DNA of 10,324 nt, taken from the NCBI GenBank assembly GCA_946535455.1, contig CAMNDO010000013.1, forward strand, positions 1 through 10,324. The letters run 5' to 3'. Source of the DNA: an uncultured Caryophanales bacterium (GTDB lineage: Bacteria > Bacillota_I > Bacilli_A > RF39 > UBA660). The position numbers and the translations under genes are program-made. Shown here one piece after another: positions 6,804 through 10,252 of this stretch. Under the pieces are notes generated by a model. It saw only the letters and a program-made list of their open reading frames with translations. It did not search any database and had not been told where the DNA came from. The stretch's first letter is position 1. Each line of letters starts with the position of its first letter.

Positions 6804-6832
6804 AAAAAATAGTATCCAATGGATACTATTTT
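6804..6832 (-). terminator. Intrinsic terminator of rpsU, overlapping its stop codon
   Basis: A perfect 12-bp stem between 6806-6817 and 6821-6832 (AAAATAGTATCC / GGATACTATTTT) with a 3-nt loop, and TTTTTT on the minus strand at its end. The first two bases of the plus-strand complement of the rpsU TAA (6831-6833) lie in the stem. Confidence 0.9.
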
Positions 6833-7034
6833 AATAATCTCTACTTCTATTTGCACGATCTCTTTTTCTAGAATTTTTAATTCCTTCTTTTTTAGCAGCT
6901 CTTCTACGAACTCCTGGTTTATCATATGCTTCTCTTTTTTTCCATTCAGAAGGGACACCGTCTCTTGCTACTTTTTGTTTGAACTTTCTTAGAGCTTGAT
7001 CTAAATTTCCTCTAACAGTTACTTTAGTTGCCAT
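6831..7034 (-). CDS. rpsU: 30S ribosomal protein S21
   Basis: Small, strongly basic protein of the 30S platform. 67 residues; the S21 signature is LDQALRKFKQKVARDG (11-26), then KKREAYDKPGVRRR (32-45) and a Lys/Arg-rich tail. Common Bacillota S21 proteins are about 57-58 residues, so this has a longer basic C terminus (KKEGIKNSRKRDRANRSRDY). GGGAGGG (7044-7050) precedes ATG at 7034. A strong promoter with extended -10 lies just upstream and a terminator just downstream, so it is an independent unit. It borders the exporter/peptide operon on one side and yqeY on the other. Confidence 0.97.
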   Translation of the reverse strand: MATKVTVRGNLDQALRKFKQKVARDGVPSEWKKREAYDKPGVRRRAAKKEGIKNSRKRDRANRSRDY

Positions 7035-7115: not shown

Positions 7116-7277
7116 TTAAGGAAAAACAACGAAATGATACAAATTTCGTAAAAAACATCCATGATAAATTCCTATTTGAAAAATAAATTTCATAACAAAA
7201 GGAATAAATGGTAATAAAAATCCCATTAAGATTCCTTTCCATAAAAAGGATGGATTTTGAATTATTTTAAAGGACAT
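7116..7277 (-). CDS. Small hydrophobic protein, candidate bacteriocin immunity protein
   Basis: 53 residues starting MSFKIIQNPSFLWKGI. One long or two short membrane segments (about 12-27 and 29-40) are flanked by basic residues; there is no double-glycine leader. I recognise no family. It begins 16 bp inside the second leader-peptide gene, with AGGAG about 10 nt before its ATG, so it is translated as part of that operon. Bacteriocin genes are usually followed by a short membrane immunity gene that protects the producer; position, size and hydrophobicity fit this, but the function is inferred. A longer frame on the same strand (7024-7242) overlaps it in another register but has no ribosome binding site and runs into rpsU, so I prefer this one. 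It could instead be a third peptide or a chance frame. Confidence 0.55.
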   Translation of the reverse strand: MSFKIIQNPSFLWKGILMGFLLPFIPFVMKFIFQIGIYHGCFLRNLYHFVVFP

Positions 7278-7435
7278 AAATGGTTTTCTCCTATTCTACG
7301 AATGCCAGAACCTAAAGAATGTCCTGCTTCTCTTAACACTTCAATAATACTGACAATGGCATTTAAGATAGGACCACTAATACTTACATTTCCTCCTTTA
7401 ATTTCCTCTAATTTTTCTTCTTCTATTCTCCTCAT
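7262..7435 (-). CDS. Double-glycine leader peptide B, putative two-peptide bacteriocin component
   Basis: 57 residues. The leader MRRIEEEKLEEIKGG (1-15) ends in Gly-Gly with Ile at -4, Leu at -7 and Ile at -12, the hydrophobic positions read by C39 leader peptidases. The predicted mature part (16-57, 42 residues) begins NVSISGP, has an amphipathic hydrophobic stretch (ILNAIVSIIEVLREAG), a GxxxG motif (GHSLG, 38-42), a basic IRRI and a single Cys54 in LCPLK. GAGGTG lies 6 nt before ATG. Its start overlaps the stop of peptide A by 4 bp (ATGA), implying matched production. Known class IIb bacteriocins act as pairs with GxxxG in both peptides; a membrane-permeabilising role is inferred. A signalling peptide is the alternative. 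I cannot name a characterised homologue. Confidence 0.85.
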   Translation of the reverse strand: MRRIEEEKLEEIKGGNVSISGPILNAIVSIIEVLREAGHSLGSGIRRIGENHLCPLK

Positions 7436-7566
7436 CCATTACACCTCTTTGGATTCGTAATCCCCTCAATCACACCAGATAAAAATATCACAATTGCGGT
7501 AATCGCAATTCCTGTCCAAACAGTGACTCCTCCCCCTTTAATTCTTTCTAATTGTTCATCATTCAT
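7432..7566 (-). CDS. Double-glycine leader peptide A, putative two-peptide bacteriocin component
   Basis: 44 residues from ATG at 7566; an in-frame ATG at 7581 would add five (leader MNIRKMNDEQLERIKGG, 17 residues, closer to the usual length). The leader ends LERIKGG, with Leu at -7 and Ile at -4 of the Gly-Gly. The mature part is 32 residues: GVTVWTGIAI onwards, a strongly hydrophobic single helix, GxxxG as GVIEG (31-35), then a polar tail NPKRCNG with one Cys. Neither start has a well-spaced ribosome binding site (GGGAAGGTGAT is too close to the first and too far from the second). The start overlaps the end of the upstream accessory gene by 8 bp (ATGAATGA), so coupled re-initiation is likely. 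Its stop overlaps the peptide B start. Paired bacteriocin is the best reading. Confidence 0.8.
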   Translation of the reverse strand: MNDEQLERIKGGGVTVWTGIAITAIVIFLSGVIEGITNPKRCNG

Positions 7567-7987
7567 TTTTCTGATATTCATCACCTTCCCATATTATTTT
7601 AAATAATTCTATTAATCTTTTTTTCCTTTTTTGAAAACTAAGTTCTATGATTTCATTATCATGGTATTTTTTGTTCCATTTCATTCGAATTAAGATGGCA
7701 TAGTAATTTGTTTTTTCTATCCTCATACTAATTCCTCGATCTTCTTCTATTTCATAAGAAAAAGTTTGATTTTTAAAATAGGCTTTTTGATTTTGATAAA
7801 TCATTTTTCTTTCTTCTTTTGTTACATAAAACAACACCGTATTTTGATGAGAAATAAATCCTTTTAACAATTGATACTCTTCTATTTTATAAGAATACAA
7901 AACCCCTCCTAAAATGAATTCTAATAAAAATAAAAAAGCAATTCCCAAAAAGCATAAATTCTTTTTCTCATAATTTCTAATTTTCAT
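7559..7987 (-). CDS. One-pass membrane accessory protein of the peptide exporter (possibly a minimal HlyD-like adaptor)
   Basis: 142 residues. A basic N terminus (MKIRNYEKK) and one membrane helix (about 11-31) imply a short cytoplasmic end and a C-terminal part outside. The outer part reads LFYVTKEERKMIYQNQKAYFKN and later a beta-rich stretch (YYAILIRMKW, EIIELSFQKRKKRLIELF). This recalls the final beta-barrel of HlyD/MFP adaptors of bacteriocin exporters, where an acidic helix start, an I-x-x-G/N-Q-x-hydrophobic turn and a closing strand are seen. The adaptor coiled coil and lipoyl-like domains are missing, and usual accessory proteins are 300-450 residues. The similarity is my reading by eye. 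The start overlaps the exporter gene by 11 bp, with AAGGA 7 nt upstream. Confidence 0.6.
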   Translation of the reverse strand: MKIRNYEKKNLCFLGIAFLFLLEFILGGVLYSYKIEEYQLLKGFISHQNTVLFYVTKEERKMIYQNQKAYFKNQTFSYEIEEDRGISMRIEKTNYYAILIRMKWNKKYHDNEIIELSFQKRKKRLIELFKIIWEGDEYQKNE

Positions 7988-10049
7988 AAATTTTTCCTTT
8001 TTCTAACCTTAAAACCCTTTGAAATAGTTTTTTATTATGAAATCGATGAGATATGACAATCACTGTTTTATCCGATAAATAAGAAAAAATACTTTGTAAT
8101 ATTTTTTTCTCACTTTCCACATCAATTCCAGAAAAAGCCTCATCAAAAATATAAATATTACTTTTCCGCATTAAACTCCTTGCGAGCACAATTCTTTGAC
8201 GTTCTCCATTACTAAAATTAAATCCATCTTCTTCAATCCACATATCATATCTACTAGTATGACTTTGAATCAAATGATTTAATTGACATATCTCGCAAAC
8301 TTTTTCCAATTCCTCTTCCTTTTCATCTTTATATAAGCAAATATTATTTCGAAGGGTATCGGTAAATAAGTATTCATGACTGGTGACATATGTAATATGA
8401 GATCTAATATTTTCTAAATGATAGTGATTAATATCAATCCCACAAATTAAAATATTTTGATAGGGAACTTCAATATAACGTAGTAACATTTTGAATAACG
8501 TACTTTTTCCGCAACCACTCTCTCCACTCAATAATATTTTATCTCCTTTCCGAATGGTTACATTTAACGCATCCAAAAGTTTTTTACTTCCTACTTGATA
8601 GGTAACATTTTGAAATGCAATATCTCCTTCCAGCGTATAAGGTAAATAAAAGTAATGGTTTTGAAACATTTCAAAATCAATCATAAAAATTTCTTCTATT
8701 CTCTCTAATGCAATTCTATAGGTAGGATATTCTTCTAATAATGCTGTCAGTCGATAATAACTTTGTAAAAAGTAAGAAACAAACGATTGATAGACAATCA
8801 AACTACTTAAGGATATTCTTCCTTGAATCACTTCATAACTACCTAATCCATACAAAAATAAAAATAGAAAATCATTCCAATTATTTTGAAAGAACGAATG
8901 AATTTCTTGAAAGAATTGGTATTGATATACTCTTTCTAAAAAAGATTTATAATATAACCCAAATTGATCCACCATTCTTTTTTCTAAATGACTCCCTTTG
9001 GTAGTATCCACATTCTGAATTCCTTGAATCATATAGGAATTGATCGTATCTTCTCCTTTCCGAATTCCTTTTTGAAGTGTTTTCTTTTTCTTCATCCAAA
9101 CTAGTAGATAAAAAACTCGAATTAGAAGAAGACCTAAAAGAAGGAAAGATAATTTTTTTTGATAATATAACATCATTCCAAAAAACAAAATCATACTAAC
9201 CAAATCCGTAATAAAAACAGCAAAAAAGTTTTGAATAAAATTCTTAACCGTGTTTAGATCTTTTAATCTGGAAATCACTTCTCCTGTCGTTCTATTTTTA
9301 TAATATAAATAAGGAAGCAAAAGAATTTGTTTGTAAGTATGAGAAGTGATTATTTGATCTAAAATAGAACTCCATTTCATTAACAAAACATTTCGATACA
9401 AGAGGTTCATGTTTTTGAAAATATATAAAACTCCTATCAGAAAACTAATGATCCATATTGGTCGGGATAATTGATAATAAATTGCATAATCTAAAAGGTA
9501 TTTAAAGTGAAATGAGACAATTACATTGAAAATAAAAAATGAAAACATACAAACAATCATGAAAATGAAACTTTTCTTTTGTTTGTGAAAAGAAATTTTA
9601 ATATATTTGGGAATCACATTTTTCTTTTTCATAATAGGCAGCTTTTTGATTGGTTTTAAAAACAAATAATGAGAGCTTGTTAATAAACGAAATTCTGAAA
9701 ATGAGATTATCTTTTTTCCTTTTTCAGGATCCATTAAGGTAATCCGTTGTTTCTTGAAATCGATATCGTAGATTACAACAAAATGTTGAAAGGATTTTTT
9801 CACAATAAAATGAGCAATACAGGGTAAGTTATTTACTGTTATATTTTCTAGATTTCCTTCTACTCCTATCGCATCAAATCCTAATCGTTTTGCTGCTTCT
9901 AGCAAATGATAGAGAGAAACACCTTCTTTTGTCGTATTGGTAAGTTCTCTTAAATATTCTTTCGAAACTTCTCCTCCATAAAATCGAATAATAGATAAAA
10001 GACAACAAACACCACAATCTTTCATGCCATCCTGTAGAACGACTTTCAC
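7977..10049 (-). CDS. Peptidase-containing ABC exporter (C39 leader peptidase, membrane domain, ATPase)
   Basis: 690 residues; cleaves double-glycine leaders in the cytoplasm and exports the mature peptides. The C39 domain (1-130) has Gln6, Cys12 in DCGVCC, His89 in QHF and Asp107 in DPEKG, the full catalytic set. The membrane domain (about 155-440) has six likely helices. The ATPase (470-690) has Walker A GESGCGKST (509-517), signature FSNGE (612-616), Walker B IYIFDE (632-637) and H-loop His668. Where a Q-loop Gln is usual (YVPQ...LF), this has YVTSHEYLF with Ser557. The start is GTG at 10049: a stop codon directly precedes it, and the next Met lies beyond Gln6. AGGAGGTGA lies upstream, though 11-14 nt away. 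It heads the five-gene operon and by position serves peptides A and B. Confidence 0.97.
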   Translation of the reverse strand: MKVVLQDGMKDCGVCCLLSIIRFYGGEVSKEYLRELTNTTKEGVSLYHLLEAAKRLGFDAIGVEGNLENITVNNLPCIAHFIVKKSFQHFVVIYDIDFKKQRITLMDPEKGKKIISFSEFRLLTSSHYLFLKPIKKLPIMKKKNVIPKYIKISFHKQKKSFIFMIVCMFSFFIFNVIVSFHFKYLLDYAIYYQLSRPIWIISFLIGVLYIFKNMNLLYRNVLLMKWSSILDQIITSHTYKQILLLPYLYYKNRTTGEVISRLKDLNTVKNFIQNFFAVFITDLVSMILFFGMMLYYQKKLSFLLLGLLLIRVFYLLVWMKKKKTLQKGIRKGEDTINSYMIQGIQNVDTTKGSHLEKRMVDQFGLYYKSFLERVYQYQFFQEIHSFFQNNWNDFLFLFLYGLGSYEVIQGRISLSSLIVYQSFVSYFLQSYYRLTALLEEYPTYRIALERIEEIFMIDFEMFQNHYFYLPYTLEGDIAFQNVTYQVGSKKLLDALNVTIRKGDKILLSGESGCGKSTLFKMLLRYIEVPYQNILICGIDINHYHLENIRSHITYVTSHEYLFTDTLRNNICLYKDEKEEELEKVCEICQLNHLIQSHTSRYDMWIEEDGFNFSNGERQRIVLARSLMRKSNIYIFDEAFSGIDVESEKKILQSIFSYLSDKTVIVISHRFHNKKLFQRVLRLEKGKIYEN

Positions 10050-10102: not shown

Positions 10103-10140
10103 CGATAAAAAACAAAAAAAAGAAGAGAAAGTTCTCTTCT
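10103..10140 (-). terminator. Intrinsic terminator upstream of the exporter gene
   Basis: Stem AGAAGAGA (10121-10128) / TCTCTTCT (10133-10140) with a 4-nt loop, or 9 bp with a 2-nt loop. On the minus strand it is followed by TTTTTTT-G-TTTTTT. It stands between the candidate promoter and the GTG of the exporter, so it either ends a small RNA or attenuates the operon. Confidence 0.8.
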
Positions 10141-10218
10141 ACTGGGATAAATAATTTCTTAACCAAACGCGTGATAATTGATAAGAATTTGAAAAAAACA
10201 AGTTTTTCTATTCATCCC
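10105..10218 (-). ncRNA. Candidate structured leader RNA or small RNA
   Basis: The predicted transcript begins at the GGG near 10218, seven bases after an extended -10. GGGATGAATA (10209-10218) pairs with TATTTATCCC (10144-10153) as a 10-bp closing helix with one G-U. It encloses hairpin GAAAAA (10203-10208) / TTTTTC (10191-10196) and hairpin TTCTTA (10182-10187) / TAAGAA (10156-10161), giving a three-way junction. A strong terminator follows a few bases later. I recognise no known riboswitch or RNA family. AT-rich DNA makes chance pairing easy, so the two inner hairpins are weak evidence. The coincidence of start, closing helix and terminator is the main support. No convincing reading frame lies inside. 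Confidence 0.45.
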
Positions 10219-10224
10219 TCAACC

Positions 10225-10252
10225 ATTATAACATAAAAAGGACTTTATACAA
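10225..10252 (-). promoter_or_regulatory. Candidate extended -10 promoter for the leader RNA / exporter operon
   Basis: TATAAT (10225-10230) preceded by TGT (extended -10). A weak -35 TTGTAT (10247-10252) is 16 nt upstream and lies inside the tRNA terminator hairpin. Predicted start near 10218. No comparable promoter is seen between the downstream terminator and the exporter start. Confidence 0.55.

Follow-up and report, generated by a model that had tools for sequence, protein, structure and literature searches.

The usual view of bacteriocins is that they are accessory traits, specific to strains and often mobile. Among them, class IIb bacteriocins (e.g., lactococcin G, plantaricin EF/JK, and lactobin A/cerein 7B) are made of adjacent peptides with double-glycine (GG) leaders and GxxxG motifs, which come with a C39 ATP-binding cassette (ABC) exporter and a small membrane protein. 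In the sections of the literature that treat this class, the GxxxG motif is described as its hallmark (PMC8538875, PMC6957408), and most class IIb peptides are reported to be without Cys (PMC10100652). Here we report a comparable five-gene operon in a 10,324-nucleotide stretch of DNA (contig CAMNDO010000013.1 of assembly GCA_946535455.1; hereafter the window) from an uncultured Caryophanales bacterium, which belongs to order RF39 and family UBA660 in the Genome Taxonomy Database (GTDB). The genes, in their order in the operon, are as follows:

7977..10049, minus strand: exporter, a C39-peptidase ABC exporter of 690 aa with a GTG start
7559..7987, minus strand: ACC, 142 aa, predicted to have one membrane helix and a beta-barrel
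7432..7584, minus strand: peptide A precursor (start at 7584, 7581 or 7566), with GG leader, GxxxG, and Pro and Cys near the C terminus
7262..7435, minus strand: peptide B precursor, 57 aa, with GG leader, GxxxG, RR and a C-terminal Cys
7116..7277, minus strand: HYD, a leaderless putative membrane protein of 53 aa, like the core of B, with GxxxGxxxR

We read this operon as a class-IIb-type two-peptide bacteriocin system that is fixed as a core genome trait of the family, and give this reading, in which killing is deduced from sequence, a probability of about 0.6.

The five open reading frames, all on the minus strand, and their order and extent (7116..10049) agreed with a preliminary description of this DNA, and because the gene order recurred in most of the 82 loci fetched (40 from relatives, 40 from 40 further family genomes, and 2 more; gene-content counts cover only loci with enough flank for the gene in question), chance can be excluded and the overlapping five-gene operon is confirmed as real. 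The overlaps given in that description were reproduced for exporter/ACC (11 bp), A/B (4 bp), and B/HYD (16 bp), and the 8 bp given for ACC/A requires a start of A at 7566; homologues agree better with a start at 7581 (ATG) or 7584 (GTG), which gives an overlap of 23-26 bp. The exporter indeed carries the C39 peptidase ascribed to it, with Peptidase_C39 (PF03412, E 4.8e-30), ABC_membrane (PF00664), and ABC_tran (PF00005) domains all far over the Pfam cut-offs; against TIGR01193 (peptide cleavage/export ABC transporter), it has the right domain set and a score of 331.5 bits, under the cut-off of 523.85. Each of the 12 genomes examined had one strong match of this exporter type (two also had a weak partial one), and the strong match sat at the operon in all 11 genomes with a listed B position. 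An exporter was found upstream of B in 68/70 loci and ACC was present in 54/70; the structure model of ACC (mean pLDDT 84.5) predicts the membrane helix and beta-barrel listed above, and no NCBIfam or Pfam family matched this protein above cut-off.

The leaders of both peptides end in I-K-G-G, as noted earlier from the letters, and resemble each other when compared as profiles (hhalign probability 95.8, E 8e-9). Among 78 A peptides, GG was kept in 77, the motif glycines in 76 and 77, Pro in 76/77, and Cys in 76/76 with a residue at that position, and the 83 B peptides were similarly uniform (motif glycines in 82 and 83, the two Arg in 80 and 79, and Cys in 81/81). Within the cores, GxxxG was kept in 73/76 A and 79/80 B peptides, and exactly one Cys was found in 70/76 and 76/80, respectively. 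Peptide A of the window passed TIGR03949, the class IIb model for lactobin A/cerein 7B (23.1 bits, cut-off 21.5), as did 4/10 A peptides from other genera; its score against NF038034 (lactococcin G-beta/enterocin 1071B) was 19.6 bits, below the cut-off of 37. TIGR03949 was also matched at E<=0.1 by 5/34 B peptides (best E 0.0028). Among relatives with solved structures, A gave one weak match only, a leader match to carnobacteriocin B2 (E 0.86). Since A passes the class IIb model of NCBI, this kind of system is already known, and the earlier suggestion that the pair may be undescribed should be taken with caution.

A lay beside B in 76/79 loci, and one of the three misses (L041) does have an A by tblastn. 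In another locus (L166, 5878-6451, minus strand), the pair occurs twice in tandem (A-B-A-B), with the last A and B copies lacking the C-terminal Cys. Adjacency, the exporter counts, this tandem copy, the kept GxxxG motifs, and cores that look to be under purifying selection (see below) all argue that A and B form a pair, as had been proposed. The co-occurrence of both peptides next to C39 exporters held in nearly all of these loci, and the loss of one peptide, which the preliminary description had named as a sign against the pair, was rare. Separately, locus L043 holds B and HYD, with no A found and no exporter within ~9.9 kb upstream.

We then consider how widely the system occurs. With the window's own proteins counted, a large protein search (5.8 billion proteins) returned 12 matches to A and 8 to B. 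With B alone as query, 49/99 genomes matched, i.e., the window's own, 30/38 genus mates, and 18/21 other family members, and 0/39 genomes of other families did. A profile built from 34 B peptides (family threshold E<=0.01) matched 357/386 sampled family genomes and 144/150 genera, including 241/251 of the more complete, clean family genomes. All genomes drawn from the order were of the same family as the window, and 138/146 were positive for this profile; of 296 genomes drawn from the class, 37 matched, with 35 in the family and 2 in another family, where the matches covered model positions 1-31 only (leader level). The 21 named records with a close B were labeled uncultured Erysipelotrichaceae, Bacillales, Tenericutes, Bacilli, Bacillota, or bacterium, and several of them were rumen (RUG), goat, or rabbit (Lapin) assemblies. 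The FabH-type domain PF08541 was found in 0/16 family genomes (the window's own assembly, 60% complete, among them) vs 11/14 control genomes, which is consistent with loss of fatty-acid synthesis. Small genomes, no PF08541, and a single family in the order also fit the description of order RF39 and family UBA660 in the relevant portions of PMC13155120 and PMC6784871.

Absences were followed at the site itself. The usual downstream neighbor of the operon is the following:

6831..7034, minus strand: rpsU (S21), <=3.5 kb downstream in 59/73 loci

None of the 8 genus mates without a B match had an intact empty site: the contigs of G026 and G031 begin 38 and 299 bp before rpsU, that of G020 ends inside ACC, G012, G015, G017, and G038 gave no yqeY match, and G033 gave a distant yqeY match only. 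Operon loss was thus not seen within the genus, the absences in 7/8 of these genomes (not G033) being consistent with assembly gaps. Seven family members outside the genus that were negative for the B profile were also followed up, among which the contig of G317 is cut at the exporter, and G156, G176, G300, and G469 gave no yqeY match. Crowding of the operon at contig ends (11/29 within 4 kb vs 8.4 expected) was not convincing. Spread by plasmids or phages was set aside because B had 0 tblastn matches in 72,556 plasmid and 50,697 phage records. Searches of the open PMC set listed no paper with a title or abstract opening on this operon or on a core bacteriocin shared by a whole family of RF39-like Bacilli, the word "bacteriocin" is absent from the main texts of the RF39-mentioning papers examined, and none of the terms sought in PMC13289728 occur there.

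Two genomes of another family of the class encode a protein of 130 aa that has a matching GG leader (L164, 9039-9431, minus strand; L165, 1470-1862), which adjoins genes looking like rplU and rpmA; we take these genomes (0.8 Mb) to be mycoplasma-like. The operon exporter matches the model of the Mycoplasma C39 exporter Mbov_0121 (NF045998) at 291 bits, far under the cut-off of 500, and the only NCBIfam match of ACC is Mycoplasma MAG1140 (NF045999; E 0.041, far under the cut-off of 35 bits). A mycoplasma-like link was rejected, as the matches of the B profile in these two genomes were at the leader level only.

The history of the operon follows that of its hosts. Over 29 taxa, distances among exporters and among A+B tracked those of YqeY+YbeY+Era (Mantel rho 0.92 and 0.78, respectively, each with 0/999 permutations), and supported splits that conflicted with supported housekeeping splits numbered 0/8 for A+B and 1/14 for the exporter, with sequence divergence well above that of the housekeeping genes (median distance 0.51 vs 0.29). 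Pooled dN/dS over the closest pairs, which are not independent and have synonymous sites near saturation, was 0.23 for the A core (25 pairs), 0.32 for the B core (25), and 0.29 for the exporter (19), and 0.46 for HYD (8), 0.51 for the A leader (25), 0.45 for the B leader (19), and 0.52 for ACC (23). Both cores thus look to be under purifying selection, the absence of which had been named in advance as telling against the pair. Judged by these comparisons of sequences, the operon is a near-universal core trait of the family that has been vertically inherited.

The last gene behaves differently. An iterative search found HYD in 41/82 loci (one of them weak, at 8.6 bits), where it starts 12-16 nt before the last base of B in 38/41, keeps GxxxG in 40/41 and GxxxGxxxR/K in 38/41, and carries a GG leader in none; no NCBIfam or Pfam family matched it above cut-off. 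Its profile aligned to the B core with a score of 22.2 (hhalign probability 59, P 9e-5), which was reached by 0/300 column-shuffled B and 0/200 column-shuffled HYD profiles, and a likeness to A was rejected (score 6.6; 106/150 shuffles as good). HYD may therefore be described as an optional, putative mimic of B, whether by homology or by convergence. The proposal that the last gene gives immunity is less supported than the pair, because only half of the loci carry it and no convincing copy was found elsewhere in ten genomes without HYD at the site; HYD is perhaps an immunity protein. At the HYD site of L066 (G006:C6:18330-18389), a 20-residue HYD-like match (E 8.4e-4) was seen, which suggests a possible HYD relic and recent gene decay. 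Related frames of ~100 aa follow B in two loci without HYD (L132, 6215-6520, and the same place in L152); as a replacement immunity gene, this frame was not retained on the scan of the L132 copy, the one scanned, which gave no family match above cut-off, and it is a possible candidate.

Mechanistically, the C39 exporter, perhaps helped by ACC, would cut off the GG leaders of both peptides and secrete the cores, and the two helices would then pair in the target membrane through their GxxxG motifs and permeabilize it. A disulfide joining the single conserved Cys residues of the two peptides may hold the pair together, and HYD, where present, might protect the producer by pairing with A or replacing B. 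Several observations weigh against a bacteriocin. The B peptide of the window had no match in NCBIfam (E<=1) or Pfam and so did not reach TIGR03949. L043 and L140, which have enough flank, lack an exporter upstream. G142 and G229 carry rpsU-yqeY inside a contig without the operon, so true loss or relocation does occur in the family. HYD is missing in half of the loci, and no replacement immunity gene was identified in the HYD-minus loci examined. Lastly, near-universal, vertical occurrence is unusual for bacteriocins.

Upstream of the exporter, in the window's genus, we found a candidate regulatory region:

10144..10218, minus strand: candidate structured leader RNA (closing stem P1, conserved CACGCG loop), covarying
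10121..10140, minus strand: predicted terminator hairpin followed by a U-run, between the RNA element and the exporter
10225..10252, minus strand: tentative promoter of the leader RNA (TTGTAT, 16 nt, TATAAT), placed by eye and absent from the promoter scan list

The P1 stem is made of differing complementary letters in different species. On an alignment rebuilt with the model (A12), which leans to that model's structure, 98.6% of P1 cells are paired and each of the 7 pairs varies on both sides in at least one sequence, a covariation matched by 0/500 shuffles and by no slid control; a plain MAFFT alignment with RNAalifold gave 4 pairs only, and the arms were then matched per sequence. Taken alone, the sequence of the window element folds at z -1.73 vs shuffles, and with shuffled arms, the number of null stems of 200 as good as P1 was 24 in the window, 25 in L063, 37 in L056, 41 in L124, 42 in L055, 71 in L065, and 108 in L071. 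Model R2, which superseded R1, matched at most once per genome, in 14/59 genomes that are all in the window's genus; on the fetched loci, it had 22 matches in 79 sources at E<=1 (L053-L074, L087, L088, L090, L091, and L133), a few near genera included, of which 11 are seeds of the model, L133 has the L088 sequence, and L053, L090, and L074 have E >0.5. An Rfam search of the region returned only a partial tRNA above gathering. These data point to a new candidate structured RNA.

In the window's genus, this leader RNA, ending in a terminator, probably governs expression of the operon. That the element is instead an independent small RNA gene has not quite an even chance: it has its own promoter-like box and terminator, it is not just upstream of the exporter in some loci of the genus (e.g., L059 and L064), and in G021 (L177), ~670 nt and another reading frame lie between it and the exporter. 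Against this stand its occurrence at most once per genome in the 14 positive genomes, an exporter start 79-105 nt 3' of it in the 19 of 22 matches that have a readable start, and G032, where the exporter also directly follows; a U-run lies downstream in 22/22 matches. A transcription attenuator of the operon would be the better fit.

Regulation also bears on the possibility that A and B are a secreted signal, either a pheromone pair or a surface-sensed cue, which is used across the family and is no weapon. In favor of a signal are the core, vertical, single-copy distribution, the stronger constraint on the cores than on the leaders by dN/dS, the fact that some pheromones are peptides with GG leaders, and a weak match of A to the model of the EntF induction factor (17.6 bits, under the cut-off of 35). 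A neighboring kinase or regulator, which the preliminary description had held would speak for a pheromone, did not turn up: no kinase or response regulator was among the 10 upstream proteins scanned from 5 loci, one of which has sigma-70 regions. LytTR regulators do occur in 8/12 genomes, but they are absent from 4/12 operon-bearing genomes and are non-adjacent in the 7 of those 8 in which they could be placed, and a pore accounts better than a short ligand for two large hydrophobic GxxxG peptides accompanied by a membrane protein like B. We therefore consider a signal improbable. Less likely still is a housekeeping membrane or cell-surface role in which A and B, through their dedicated exporter, act on the producer's own envelope, since near-universal retention in reduced genomes, linkage to housekeeping genes (in L054, with mreC and M23/M50 peptidases upstream), and the dispensability of HYD, which immunity would need, are set against a divergence well above that of housekeeping genes, the true absences in G142 and G229, and the passing of the class IIb model by A.

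Returning to the bacteriocin reading, one may go further and picture the operon as a family-defining scavenging weapon, in which a lineage without a detectable FabH-type fatty-acid synthase would lyse its neighbors for lipids and other nutrients with one exporter and a disulfide-held two-peptide pore, under an attenuator RNA of a new type in some genera and with an optional leaderless copy of B for protection. As a whole, this scenario is speculative and unlikely to hold in all its parts. What matters more broadly is that almost all sampled species of a large gut family, itself uncultured, carry a two-peptide system, and that this system follows the housekeeping phylogeny. If killing is true, a whole family has a fixed weapon, and the ecology of these auxotrophic gut bacteria becomes testable; if it is false, two-peptide systems of the GxxxG type have a core role other than killing. 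The likeness of HYD to B also makes immunity by mimicry, which is called a mystery or only a hypothesis in the parts of the literature that discuss it, directly testable, and the 82 loci with and without HYD are available for comparison.

Several described systems resemble this one in part. The Cdz glycine-zipper system of Caulobacter, as it is described in part of PMC5380434, likewise has two small exported GxxxG proteins and a small membrane immunity protein, a likeness that rests on description; in contrast to the operon, Cdz uses Gram-negative type I secretion, forms surface aggregates, and has larger proteins. CbnZ, the immunity protein of carnobacteriocin XY, is known here from its description in a section of PMC8538875 as very small (42 aa) with one predicted membrane helix, and HYD is likewise a small putative membrane protein, of 53 aa, that resembles B by profile. 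In gallocin A of Streptococcus gallolyticus (GllA1/GllA2/GIP), two peptides are also followed by a small immunity protein that was modeled as resembling them; according to the parts of PMC10100652 that treat it, immunity by GIP was established by experiment and competition was proposed from low-confidence models. The gallocin peptides have two Cys each with an intramolecular bond (same source, same parts), whereas here there is one Cys in each; BlpHR controls the gallocin operon, and many loci here lack HYD. Compared with class IIb bacteriocins at large, the operon has a B that passes no model, an optional immunity candidate in HYD, and an exporter-first order that, as the preliminary description had pointed out, departs from the common peptide-first layout. 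Overall, the class IIb-like kind is known, and what is new here is the near-universal, vertical occurrence in one family that we read as family-wide fixation, one conserved Cys per peptide with its possible single-Cys pairing, a putative B-mimic recognized at the sequence level, and a candidate leader RNA.

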